Below, piece by piece: positions 10,381-18,818 of a DNA stretch of 64,000 nucleotides; the first letter of the stretch is position 1, and each line of letters opens with the position of its first letter. The notes under the pieces are model-generated. The model was not told the origin of the DNA. It ran no database searches and saw only the letters and a program-made list of their open reading frames with translations. The stretch spans positions 49,390 to 113,389 of the forward strand of contig NZ_FUXI01000006.1 in NCBI RefSeq assembly GCF_900167335.1, read 5' to 3'. A program made the position numbers and the translations under genes. Origin of the DNA: Pilibacter termitis (GTDB taxonomy: Bacteria; Bacillota; Bacilli; Lactobacillales; Streptococcaceae).

Positions 10381-10659
10381 GGGGACCTCTAAAAACTCGC
10401 ACTTATCCTAAATTGCTAGTTTTCCGATTTTCTTCGTCAATCTCCTCAACCTTGTCTAGCTACGAAGTGCAGGAGTTTGGCAACTGTTCGCAGTGTCGCT
10501 CGAAACTAAAGTTTCGAGTAAATAAACGACACGGCTCACTGTTGCAAACTCCTTAACGCACTTCTTCGCTTTTCTATGAACCACATAGCTTTCGTCGATT
10601 TCCTCGAAAATAAGAAAAACTAGCTAATTTAGTTTTAAGCGGAGTTTTTAGAGGTACCC
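10381..10659. mobile_element. MITE (family 1), long copy with nested hairpin repeat
   Basis: 279 bp from GGGGACCTCTAAAAACTCG to CGGAGTTTTTAGAGGTACCC, flanked by ATAT on both sides. The outer 45-55 bp on each side are imperfect inverted repeats. The centre (10455-10575) is one complete family-2 hairpin unit. The whole is nearly identical, in reverse orientation, to 15614-15891. It interrupts the PTS operon between EIIC and EIIB. Confidence 0.88.
10455..10575. repeat. Family-2 hairpin unit nested in a MITE
   Basis: Starts TCTAGCTACGAAGTGC and ends with AAGTGCG complement and CTTCTTCGCTTTTC. The central tip is CGAAACTAAAGTTTCG. It has the same layout as the tandem arrays. Confidence 0.85.
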
Positions 10660-15392: not shown

Positions 15393-15613
15393 TTTTTCGT
15401 AAAAATAATTATATTCGGATATTTGTATCTTTTCTTTTACAAATATAGTTTACATTTTTGTACTTTATTTTTCAAATCAAAATGGAATCAAGTGACAAAT
15501 TGTCAGAATACAATAGAAAACTTGTCGTGATATGATATGTTCACGTTGTAAAAAGTATGCTATACTCAATGAGAGTATGTATGTTGTCAAAAATGATAAC
15601 GGTAACAATTAAA
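15393..15613. other. AT-rich divergent intergenic region
   Basis: 220 bp between the AraC gene and the MITE. It contains a palindrome TGACAAATTGTCA near 15493 and a TATGAT/TATACT-rich stretch at 15531-15566 that could hold plus-strand promoters. I could not assign a convincing -35/-10 pair. Confidence 0.35.
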
Positions 15614-15891
15614 GGGCGCCTCTAAAAACTCCGCTTAAGACTAAATTAGCTAGTTTTTCGATTATCGAGGAAATCGACGAAAGCTATGTGGTTCATAGAA
15701 AAGCGAAGAAGTGCGTTAAGGAGTTTGCAACAGTGAGCCGTGTCGTTTATTTACTCGAAACTTTAGTTTCGAGCGACACTGCGAACAGTTGCCAAACTCC
15801 TGCACTTCGGAGCTAGACAAGGTTGAGGAGATTGACGAAGAAAATCGGAAAACTAGCAATTTAGGATAAGTGCGAGTTTTTAGAGGTGCCC
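15614..15891. mobile_element. MITE (family 1), long copy with nested hairpin repeat
   Basis: 278 bp from GGGCGCCTCTAAAAACTCC to GCGAGTTTTTAGAGGTGCCC, flanked on both sides by TAAA. It is the inverted near-twin of 10381-10659, including the nested family-2 unit at 15698-15819. It ends 25 bp before the lipoprotein start, so it forms most of that gene's leader. Confidence 0.88.
15698..15819. repeat. Family-2 hairpin unit nested in a MITE
   Basis: Complete unit with tip CGAAACTTTAGTTTCG, joined to the MITE arms by short spacers (CGACGAAAGCTATGTGG on the left, GGTTGAGGAGATTGACG on the right) that also occur in the 10381 copy. Confidence 0.85.
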
Positions 15892-15916
15892 TAAAGAATA
15901 TAGGGAGGGTCAATCA

Positions 15917-16708
15917 ATGAAATTGATGAAAAAAGTATTACTCATTGCATTAGGGGTGTTAACTCTTGCGGGGTGTTCCAATGAGAAAAAAGCAACCAAA
16001 GAGCCAACAAAAAATACTACGGAAAAAACAGAGTTAAAAGCGAAAACGAAAAAGGAATATGTTTCTTATTTGACTGCGATTGATAAAAGTAAAGTGCACT
16101 CGGAGAACTCGGAGTTTAGCATGCTAATAAATGTAGAGAATCCAAAGGAATTAGCAGAGGACAATACAAATATTTTTATCGCTCGTGTGGTTTCCTTAGA
16201 TAAGGCGGAAGTTCGCCCAAATTCTCAAGGAAATACTTTTCCAAATACGGTAGGAAAGTTAGAAATTTTGAAGAATTTAAAAGGAAAAGCCACTGGAATG
16301 GTTGAGTTTGCGAGATTTGGAGGAATTATCGAGGAAAAAGAGCGGTACAAAAACGATTTTCCAGAGGCAATCGAAAAAGCCAATGAGCTTAGAGCAAAAG
16401 AAGGGAAAGGCCCTGTCGAGGAGAGTAATGAGCTAGTTGAGATGAAAAAATCGGGCGATATTTATTTAACTGCAGGAGAGGTGTATTTATTTTACGCAAA
16501 TTGGGATAGCGAGTGGAAAAAATATACATTAAATGGTTTTGAATATGGTGCATTAAAATTAGAAGATGAGCAACAGCCAATTGACGAAGTAAAAATGGGG
16601 GAAGATGAAATTGGGAAAACGTGGGAAGTGAAGAACGAGGGAACGGGTCAACAAGAGAATTTGGATGGTTATTTAGAAAAAATTGGTGTCGTGGTAAAAG
16701 AGAAGTAA
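15917..16708 (+). CDS. Lipoprotein, paralogue of the one at 17945
   Basis: 263 residues with a lipoprotein signal peptide (LTLAGC, lipidated Cys near residue 21) and then a Lys/Thr/Glu-rich linker. The body shares with the 17945 protein the patterns SYL..ID.S.V, IF.AR..S.D, GKLEIL.N.KG and a C-terminal GKTW.VKNE motif. No family recognised. It should be anchored to the outer face of the membrane. ATG follows AGGAGGG. With the metzincin gene and the second paralogue it forms a secreted trio, possibly partners or inhibitors of the protease (inference). Confidence 0.8.
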   Translation: MKLMKKVLLIALGVLTLAGCSNEKKATKEPTKNTTEKTELKAKTKKEYVSYLTAIDKSKVHSENSEFSMLINVENPKELAEDNTNIFIARVVSLDKAEVRPNSQGNTFPNTVGKLEILKNLKGKATGMVEFARFGGIIEEKERYKNDFPEAIEKANELRAKEGKGPVEESNELVEMKKSGDIYLTAGEVYLFYANWDSEWKKYTLNGFEYGALKLEDEQQPIDEVKMGEDEIGKTWEVKNEGTGQQENLDGYLEKIGVVVKEK

Positions 16709-16924: not shown

Positions 16925-17932
16925 ATGGAGAGATTAAAAAGAGTTGTTGTGTGGGTGTGTGTGATAATTTCTGTTATTCTAGTAGAATATGTGAACGCAT
17001 TATCTCCAAAACCTACTCAACCTGTTTTAGTCGCACAGGTGCATGGACAAAATTATGGTTGGGCAAATAAAGATAGGGGAGGAACCGTGACTGTTGGTAC
17101 GACAGGGAAATCGCTTAGGTTAGAGGCGATAAGAGTTTGGGTTGAAGGGAGGGGGATTGGCGTAGTTTACCAAACACATCTTGCTGGCATAGGTTGGGTT
17201 ACTGCAACAGGCGATGGAAAGATGTCTGGGACAACAGGACAGGGAAGAAGATTAGAGGCGATTGCTTTTAATTTTACAGGCAGTCATGCAGGGAGTGCTT
17301 ATGACATTCAATATCGAGCACATGTTGCTGGAATTGGTTGGCAAGGTTGGCGAAGCGGAGGAGAAGTAGCAGGAACGACGGGGAAAAGTCGAGCGATCGA
17401 GGCATTGCAAATAAGAGTAATTGAGAGAAAAACGCCAGATTTGGGTTCGAAATTAGCAGATGGGATAAGAAGAGTGGACTATTATATAGATAGTTCAGCA
17501 ACACAATTTGTTAATCGCATCAATGGAGCAGTTCATAATTGGATGTACACAGGTTGGGATAATCCCCTTTATATGGAACGATTGTATCACAATCAAGGAA
17601 GCGATATAGATATTTATAGCGTGCCGTATGTCTTTCCGAATCGACCGAATGTAGTTGGAGTGACAGGTTTTTATGACAATCAAAACAGACAAATTATTAA
17701 TTATAGGAATCCGAATTCTAGACACGATTATTCAATAATTTGGATGTCAAGTGCACATCAAAACATGGAATATTTTGATGCAGCGATTAAACATGAGTTA
17801 GGACATGCTTTTGGAATGGATCATTCAAAGAATTTATGGAGCATTATGTATGAAAATCAGTCAATGCAAGTCCGCTCTGTACAAAAAGTAGATAGCGATA
17901 AATTAATCGACCTTTATGGTTGGGATTGGTAA
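16925..17932 (+). CDS. Secreted ChW-repeat metzincin-type metalloprotease
   Basis: 335 residues with an N-terminal signal sequence or anchor (residues about 6-26). Three ChW-type repeats follow (about 38-84, 86-133, 138-180), each with the Gly-Trp core (NYGWANK, GIGWVT, GIGWQGW) and the trailing TTG(K/Q)..R(L/A)EA motif. The C-terminal domain carries the zinc-binding HELGHAFGMDH at 290-300 and a Met-turn SIMY at 306-309, which define metzincins. It should cleave proteins outside the cell, with the ChW repeats binding the surface or a substrate. It is flanked by two paralogous lipoproteins, the second starting 13 bp after its stop. Confidence 0.85.
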   Translation: MERLKRVVVWVCVIISVILVEYVNALSPKPTQPVLVAQVHGQNYGWANKDRGGTVTVGTTGKSLRLEAIRVWVEGRGIGVVYQTHLAGIGWVTATGDGKMSGTTGQGRRLEAIAFNFTGSHAGSAYDIQYRAHVAGIGWQGWRSGGEVAGTTGKSRAIEALQIRVIERKTPDLGSKLADGIRRVDYYIDSSATQFVNRINGAVHNWMYTGWDNPLYMERLYHNQGSDIDIYSVPYVFPNRPNVVGVTGFYDNQNRQIINYRNPNSRHDYSIIWMSSAHQNMEYFDAAIKHELGHAFGMDHSKNLWSIMYENQSMQVRSVQKVDSDKLIDLYGWDW

Positions 17933-17944
17933 GGGGAAAACATC

Positions 17945-18727
17945 ATGAAAAAAATAATTTTATTCTTAATTGCTATCACATTGCTTACTGCTTGTGGCGA
18001 AAAAAATAAGCAAGATAAATCAGAAAGTAGCAACTCTCAAAACAACGAGCCACGATATTATAGCTATTTAGATGATATTGATGTCTCCAATGTTGAAAGG
18101 CTTTTAACGAAAGGATTTTCTTCTATTGATGAAAGTGATCCAAAAACTTTGAATGAGGCATATGAGTATATTTTTCTAGCAAGAGTTCTTTCCATAGACG
18201 GAGCGGTTAATCGTTTTAATCAAGCGGAACAAGCTTCCACGATTGGAAAACTGGAAATTTTGGAAAATATTAAAGGAAACACACCGAAAATTATCCCTTT
18301 TGAACGGTATGGCGGTTATATTAAGGTGAAAGATTATTATAAAGGCAGTTCGGAGAGTCTTTTGGAGAAAGTAAATCGAAATAGAAAAGTCAAAGTACAA
18401 GATGATGAGAGTTATATAGAAGTACTTTTTTCAGAAAATGGAAATGATATTCATTTAAAAGCTGGGGCGGTTTATTTGATGTATGCGTATTATAATACAT
18501 ATATCAAAGAGGAACCAATGTATGCGATTCAAGGAGGGCAATATGGCTCGCTTTCTCTACAAGCAACTGAGGAATCAATTACTCAAGTTATGAAACAAGT
18601 CACACGAAGTGCGAGCGAGGGGGTTGTTATTGGAAAAACATGGAAAGTGAAGAACGAAAGTGACGGAACGAAACAAAATTTGGGAGATTATTTGAAAAAT
18701 ATAGGGATTAAAGTAATAGAGAGATAA
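17945..18727 (+). CDS. Lipoprotein, paralogue of the one at 15917
   Basis: 260 residues, lipobox LLTAC with lipidated Cys at about residue 17, then a short polar linker. It has the same core motifs as the 15917 lipoprotein (IGKLEILENIKG, RYGGYI, AVYLMYAYY, GKTWKVKNE). ATG follows AAGGGGAAAACATC, 13 bp after the metzincin stop, so it is co-transcribed with the protease. Function unknown. The two paralogues probably arose by duplication around the protease gene. Confidence 0.8.
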   Translation: MKKIILFLIAITLLTACGEKNKQDKSESSNSQNNEPRYYSYLDDIDVSNVERLLTKGFSSIDESDPKTLNEAYEYIFLARVLSIDGAVNRFNQAEQASTIGKLEILENIKGNTPKIIPFERYGGYIKVKDYYKGSSESLLEKVNRNRKVKVQDDESYIEVLFSENGNDIHLKAGAVYLMYAYYNTYIKEEPMYAIQGGQYGSLSLQATEESITQVMKQVTRSASEGVVIGKTWKVKNESDGTKQNLGDYLKNIGIKVIER

Positions 18728-18770: not shown

Positions 18771-18818
18771 GAGGAAAACCCTTGAAACTTATTTTTTTCA
18801 AGGGTTTTCGTTTTTTAA
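18771..18818. terminator. Bidirectional terminator
   Basis: GAAAACCCTTGAAA and TTTCAAGGGTTTTC form a perfect stem followed by TTTTTT, between the convergent lipoprotein and hydrolase genes. Confidence 0.9.

Follow-up and report, generated by a model that had tools for sequence, protein, structure and literature searches.

The pairing of a metzincin with a TIMP-like lipoprotein has already been published, as the Mtz-Tim pair of Listeria monocytogenes (LMRG_00713/00714; Boichis et al. 2021, PMC8235301). In the sections of that paper dealing with the two proteins, Mtz is described as a secreted metzincin and Tim as a TIMP-like lipoprotein encoded by the gene directly following. Tim is found as one short form, with ~50 N-terminal residues missing, in the presence of active Mtz and not of E136A Mtz; the same sections establish that Tim is cleaved by Mtz and do not demonstrate inhibition of Mtz by Tim. 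Mtz and Tim together raise the sensitivity to lysis, that of neighbours included, and both proteins are needed for this effect. The Listeria pair is described as adjoining a cI-cro switch or sitting in prophages, and in the main text Enterococcus occurs once, within the title of a reference, and ChW never (PMC8235301). A second precedent comes from Tannerella forsythia, in which karilysin, a bacterial matrixin, is paired with potempin A, a lipoprotein that inhibits it specifically and is encoded next to it; in the passages on gene arrangement in PMC7296668, potempin genes immediately precede the gene of the protease and their products are small lipoproteins.

Here we describe a protease and a protease-lipoprotein pair of the Mtz-Tim kind in a stretch of 64,000 nucleotides from Pilibacter termitis (hereafter the window; assembly GCF_900167335.1, contig NZ_FUXI01000006.1, positions 49,390 to 113,389 of the forward strand). 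As in Listeria, a secreted metzincin is followed immediately by the gene of a lipoprotein whose predicted fold is TIMP-like, and the protease domains are homologous. Unlike the Listeria pair, which is without ChW repeats, the window protease carries such repeats; its lipoprotein is not recognisably similar in sequence to that of Listeria, and a second lipoprotein gene lies upstream. New relative to the published pair are the ChW fusion, which our searches met nowhere else, the solo lipoprotein beside it and the broader distribution of the pair.

The protease gene occupies positions 16925-17932 of the window on the forward strand, on which all features described below for the locus lie, and encodes a predicted secreted zinc metalloprotease of 335 aa (ATG start). 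A hydrophobic N-terminus is followed by three ChW repeats at 17042-17149, 17177-17281 and 17321-17419 (profile matches at C24:66431-66538, C24:66566-66670 and C24:66710-66808; window offset 49389), and the C-terminal end is formed by a matrixin-like catalytic domain (residues 169-335; 17429-17929) delimited by Pfam, PDB profile and fold matches. The domain contains the zinc site HELGHAFGMDH (residues 290-300; 17792-17824) and the Met-turn SIMY (residues 306-309; 17840-17851). A first-pass annotation had read the three repeats, the zinc site and the Met-turn in this single ORF and had proposed a domain search; both ChW (PF07538; three stretches, E 2.8e-33, 113.9 bits) and Peptidase_M10 matrixin (PF00413; E 5.4e-07, 30 bits, cut-off 24) scored above their cut-offs and confirm that reading. 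Pfam match, zinc site and Met-turn together identify the protein as a matrixin, a signal-bearing metzincin with HExxHxxGxxH and Met-turn; the zinc motif arose by chance in 5 of 200,000 residue shuffles of the protein. The sole cysteine is residue 12, so that the protease is devoid of a cysteine switch. Karilysin is its closest solved relative, being both the best PDB profile match of the catalytic domain (E 5.7e-08) and the top Foldseek match of the predicted domain structure (E 6.6e-08); the fourth-ranking Foldseek match is a karilysin chain solved with the inhibitor potempin A bound.

The relationship to Mtz was assessed with a family of 24 loci in 21 genomes (family f7). At 18 of these loci an ORF carries the zinc motif in its strict form; in 17 of them the next ORF codes for a lipoprotein or membrane protein, and the eighteenth, L159, is a longer single ORF. 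One locus with a relaxed motif (L173) has a short protease piece and then a lipoprotein, and the remaining 5 loci yielded no such ORF. Because gene order, H135/E136 and the AIMLD sequence match the residues given for Mtz-Tim in PMC8235301, as far as that paper specifies them, we infer that the f7 loci are from Listeria. Window-type and f7 protease profiles align over 164 columns (hhalign probability 98, E 2.5e-13), and on this sequence comparison the window protease is homologous to Listeria-type Mtz. L159 (1057-2037, minus strand) is a possible one-protein form of the pair; its C-terminal extension of ~150 aa is only weakly Tim-like (E 0.0086), too little to claim a natural fusion. Further divergent pairs of a matrixin with a lipoprotein or membrane protein were seen in f7 and in genome G132 (L161, L166, L177, L174, L181, L201, L202 and L204).

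The first-pass annotation had called the fusion of ChW repeats to a metzincin uncommon, and the searches bear this out. A full-length match was found in the genome of origin only, both among the 58 nearest-kin genomes and among 398 genomes of the phylum (itself included in each; for the phylum at E 1e-08 with up to 5 candidates scored per genome). Among 72,556 plasmid records no site covered 80% of the window protease query; 23 records match the query protein P0001, and the 15 listed, all Lactococcus records annotated as C47 peptidase, cover 54% of it. ChW repeats occur in the window copy only among the 13 close protease loci described below. A literature search, judged by title, retrieved no published report of such a fusion, and ChW repeat and metalloprotease were met together only as features of separate genes. 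The fusion thus looks new. The window protein shares with the ChW-repeat surface proteins of Firmicutes a set of three repeats scoring above the Pfam cut-off and differs from them in its matrixin catalytic part, for which no other such fusion was found.

By analogy with these proteins, the protease is probably held at the cell surface by its ChW repeats. In the display experiments reported in PMC6700490, a phage anchor containing ChW is roughly as effective as the standard anchor in presenting proteins on Lactococcus; it was not detected in the released wall fraction described there, which leaves the anchoring site of the window protease unsure. ChW repeats have been suggested to work in triplets, with a ligand given as unknown in the part of PMC5817068 devoted to them. 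Two other ChW loci were noted in the genome of origin (G000). At L040 (contig C7; 5738-6583 and 6911-7822) two adjoining related ChW proteins have three repeats each and similar N-terminal parts of unknown kind. At L041 (contig C36; 4252-6483, minus strand) a 743-aa protein combines six ChW repeats with Big_2 domains and a HEYGH sequence nearer the C-terminus; it may be a further ChW zincin, of a different type.

The protease gene is flanked by two genes for related lipoproteins, each with a single cysteine located in the lipobox. Lipoprotein 1 (15917-16708; 263 aa, lipobox LAGC, Cys20) ends 216 bp upstream and lipoprotein 2 (17945-18727; 260 aa, lipobox LTAC, Cys17) begins 12 bp downstream; a terminator-like hairpin of 14 pairs with a T tail (18774-18809) follows lipoprotein 2 and is weak by count, since 2 such sites were found against 1.7 expected in shuffles. 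The two proteins share 35% identity over 273 aligned columns (95 identical, E 9e-43). Apart from lipoprotein signal models and sub-threshold matches, no Pfam or NCBIfam family was found for them, and their profiles gave 4 PDB matches, none convincing (best E 0.087; three on the signal segment). Upstream of lipoprotein 1, at 15613-15892, lies one copy of a dispersed repeat of ~280 bp with inverted arms and internal units of 61-65 bp that appear tandemly multiplied in other copies, which we take to resemble BOX or MITE elements; it gave 121 local matches in the same genome, from 40 of 445 candidates scored, including 10381-10654 (minus strand) and 8-192 of the window. The last 33 residues of a helicase-like ORF (assigned by eye) elsewhere in the genome (L048, 563-2050, minus strand, contig C41) match the C-terminal end of the lipoproteins almost exactly.

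A second locus in the same genome (contig C44) encodes a matrixin without ChW repeats that is 43% identical to the window catalytic domain, and a lipoprotein gene 2 bp after it, or overlapping it if a TTG start is used. Lipoprotein 1 is 69% identical to this C44 lipoprotein and 38% to lipoprotein 2, and is accordingly best read as a solo copy, without a protease of its own, of the C44-type cassette. In the stretches listed around the protease genes of other loci, no second lipoprotein of the family was seen. These observations do not support reading the two flanking genes as equal parts of one unit; the description of related lipoproteins on both sides in the first-pass annotation was correct, with the distal one 12 and not 13 bp away.

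The conserved unit is the protease with the downstream lipoprotein. A partner gene follows directly in all 13 close relatives read, from 10 genomes: the window, the C44 locus, G057, G257, G336, G316, L081-L086 (five contigs from three Erysipelotrichaceae MAGs and one Eubacterium contig) and L189 (genome G958). At L086 the protease is divided over different frames and the partner gene is truncated by the contig end, and the L189 partner is without a lipobox; the gaps are short (junctions of 11 loci compared). Matrixin-like matches as such are common in the order (139 of 395 genomes at E 0.001), and at more distant matrixin loci (L100-L123) a lipobox protein within 250 bp downstream was found in 0 of 24. 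The idea that the lipoproteins are partners of the protease, and the expectation that the neighbourhood would be conserved, thus held for the downstream gene and failed for the upstream one. That the upstream gene is no conserved partner is what one might expect if the neighbours had nothing to do with the action of the protease and had come together by chance or operon history; given that the downstream pairing holds at all 13 close loci, which come from several families and differ in their surroundings, and at none of the 24 distant ones, we consider this highly improbable. Distances among proteases and among partners are correlated (r 0.88, permutation p 5e-05, 11 pairs), as shared descent alone may yield. 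Outside these 13, genome G132 has proteases of intermediate similarity (best 54 bits), and 3 of its 4 loci fetched, from 5 matches, have a partner ORF downstream (L201, L202 and L204). The L202 partner, which is without a lipobox, aligns with the window-type lipoproteins (probability 96, E 4.9e-09), and that of L204 shows no lipobox from the start read; at the fourth locus (L203) a shortened protease ORF is followed by only a 63-aa ORF and the pair appears degraded.

The structure of the partner was predicted with AlphaFold2 from 14 aligned lipoproteins (pLDDT 77.5, pTM 0.74; low confidence at residues 1-34 and 217-227). Foldseek gave no match at E 0.001 for this model (best 6.8e-03), and the best entries, at E 0.007 to 0.04, include complement C3, the agrin NtA domain and TIMP-2. 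Structural re-alignment ranked agrin NtA (Z 9.2), N-TIMP-3 (Z 7.9; 116 residues at 3.6 Å) and TIMP-1 (Z 7.4) as the best PDB chains, the span aligned to N-TIMP-3 comprising residues 57-259 of lipoprotein 2 (18113-18721). These scores are moderate: models that lack a clear match commonly reach a best Z of 7 to 8. A TIMP/NTR-like fold is nonetheless persuasive because the list is so uniform: 49 of the 50 entries listed are NTR/TIMP domains, counting those of complement C3, C4 and C5, which we take to be NTR domains, and the remaining one is PriB. The globular domain is accordingly predicted to fold like TIMP/NTR. Potempin A was not among the 50 entries listed, which in itself argues against nothing, and no TIMP or NTR match was reported by Pfam for the 14 lipoproteins at E up to 5. 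Conserved disulphides and a free N-terminal Cys1 are hallmarks of TIMPs; as the window lipoproteins contain no cysteine beyond the lipobox, both are absent. The locus thus resembles animal MMP-TIMP systems, by predicted structure, in combining a matrixin with an NTR-fold partner, and differs from them in the missing TIMP Pfam match, the single cysteine and the lipid anchor, which takes the place of the free N-terminal cysteine of animal TIMPs.

Any stable partnership would suit the invariant gene order and short gaps, including one in which the lipoprotein serves as a docking protein or as a helper in secretion or folding and neither inhibits the protease nor is cut by it. The predicted TIMP-like fold suggests instead that it engages the active-site cleft, and lipoprotein genes that persist without a client protease, such as the gene at 15917 of the window and those at L087 and L089, would be hard to explain for a helper; we regard such a role as improbable.

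The partner may also be compared with Tim itself. Against the f7 Tim profile only the signal segment of the window-type lipoproteins aligns, the fold domain alone giving a probability of 26.5 (E 7e-04), and other matrixin-adjacent partners align through the fold core (probability 94, E 1.1e-07; probability 86.6, E 4.5e-06). The lipoprotein would therefore correspond to Tim by gene position and predicted fold, and by sequence at most through intermediates. For Listeria, the relevant sections of PMC8235301 propose that Tim is a substrate, with cleavage and lysis effects that depend on both proteins. Transferred to the window, the lipoprotein would be the true effector: its linker would be cut and the released TIMP-like domain would loosen the wall of the producer and its neighbours. 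The proteases are homologous, residues 1-34 of the lipoprotein model lie below pLDDT 50, and a Y-x-S-Y-L motif just before the fold (residues 38-42) is kept in 9 of 9 near relatives. The Erysipelotrichaceae partners do not share the motif, sequence similarity to Tim is confined as stated above, and intact lipoproteins without an adjoining protease (window 15917, L087 and L089) would be idle, which makes this a possible, if doubtful, explanation.

Such solitary lipoproteins were examined across a set of 395 genomes from the order, to which the genome of origin belongs; in each genome 6 or 9 candidates were scored. The lipoprotein model reached at least 230 bits in 9 genomes and the protease model at least 158 bits in 5, all of which fall within the 9. 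In the four genomes with a lipoprotein and without a close protease, the lipoprotein gene is intact in two (G165, G376) and broken in two (G187, G297), so that retention of a solo copy is not universal. When 11 proteases served as queries in translated searches, no protease remnant was detected at these four loci or upstream of the window protease (best E 0.25). In the genome of origin itself, three lipoproteins stand beside two such proteases. Across the genomes searched, loss runs one way: the close protease has been lost, the lipoprotein alone has not. A class-wide lipoprotein search (398 genomes) added weak matches only, mostly beginning at the signal segment; the 72,556 plasmid records gave no lipoprotein match, and viral contigs gave weak partial matches at 5 loci. 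Lipoprotein loci in genus g28 lie close to variable defence or competition genes (L088, 1458-4761; L087, 7128-11359; L089, 4020-5270; L090, 7034-9764), among them Hachiman-like HamA/HamB, Gabija-like GajA/GajB, a Fic protein and a lactococcin-972-like gene, with defence genes near L087 and L088; resolvase genes flank L091. Among the ORFs listed around the window copy no phage genes are evident, the dispersed repeat lying upstream, and nothing like the cI-cro switch or prophage setting described for the Listeria pair in PMC8235301 was seen.

Taken together, we lean towards the reading that the locus encodes a ChW-matrixin and a cognate, membrane-anchored TIMP-fold lipoprotein that restrains it, as a variant of Mtz-Tim. 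A tethered inhibitor is favoured because of the TIMP-like fold, the strict pairing, the lack of a cysteine switch and the loss of the protease only. The protease would be exported and held at the cell envelope by its three ChW repeats, where it would cut surface proteins of the producer or of neighbours. Lipoprotein 2, probably co-transcribed with it, would most likely bind in the catalytic cleft of the cognate protease, at the membrane of the producing cell, and shield that cell by restraining the enzyme. As in Listeria, the protease may in addition cut the extended stretch that links the lipid anchor to the globular domain. Lipoprotein 2 is thus most likely a membrane-tethered inhibitor and perhaps also a substrate; the first-pass annotation had named inhibitors and substrates among its options, without reference to the Listeria pair, and the predicted fold and the cleavage reported in the Tim sections of PMC8235301 make both fitting. 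Catalytic domain and lipoprotein folded as one chain gave a pTM of 0.53 and no confident interface, so that we infer inhibition by the lipoprotein, and likewise its binding to the protease, the protease target and the role of the ChW repeats. The karilysin system differs in arrangement, the potempin gene lying upstream of the protease in the account of PMC7296668 and the conserved partner gene of the window, coding for 260 aa, downstream; the profile of the window-type lipoproteins, moreover, matched no PDB sequence convincingly.

Cleavage and inhibition may be one mechanism, in which the linker is cut and the new end stays in the cleft. In a bolder and rather unlikely version, the linker would lie across the cleft and be cut once, the new N-terminus of the released domain would hold the zinc as Cys1 does in TIMP, the protease would be a ChW-held weapon directed at neighbours, and the solo lipoproteins would be immunity genes that counter the proteases of other strains.

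The present analysis extends a pair studied in a single paper on Listeria to the lineage of the window, to enterococci and to Erysipelotrichaceae, the predicted fold being the basis for calling the window-type lipoproteins TIMP-like, and adds a form of the pair equipped with a surface-binding module. The locus bears on the question of whether a bacterial TIMP-like lipoprotein is an inhibitor, a substrate or both. If the idea of a substrate turned inhibitor is true, the pair would be a bacterial counterpart of MMP-TIMP control.
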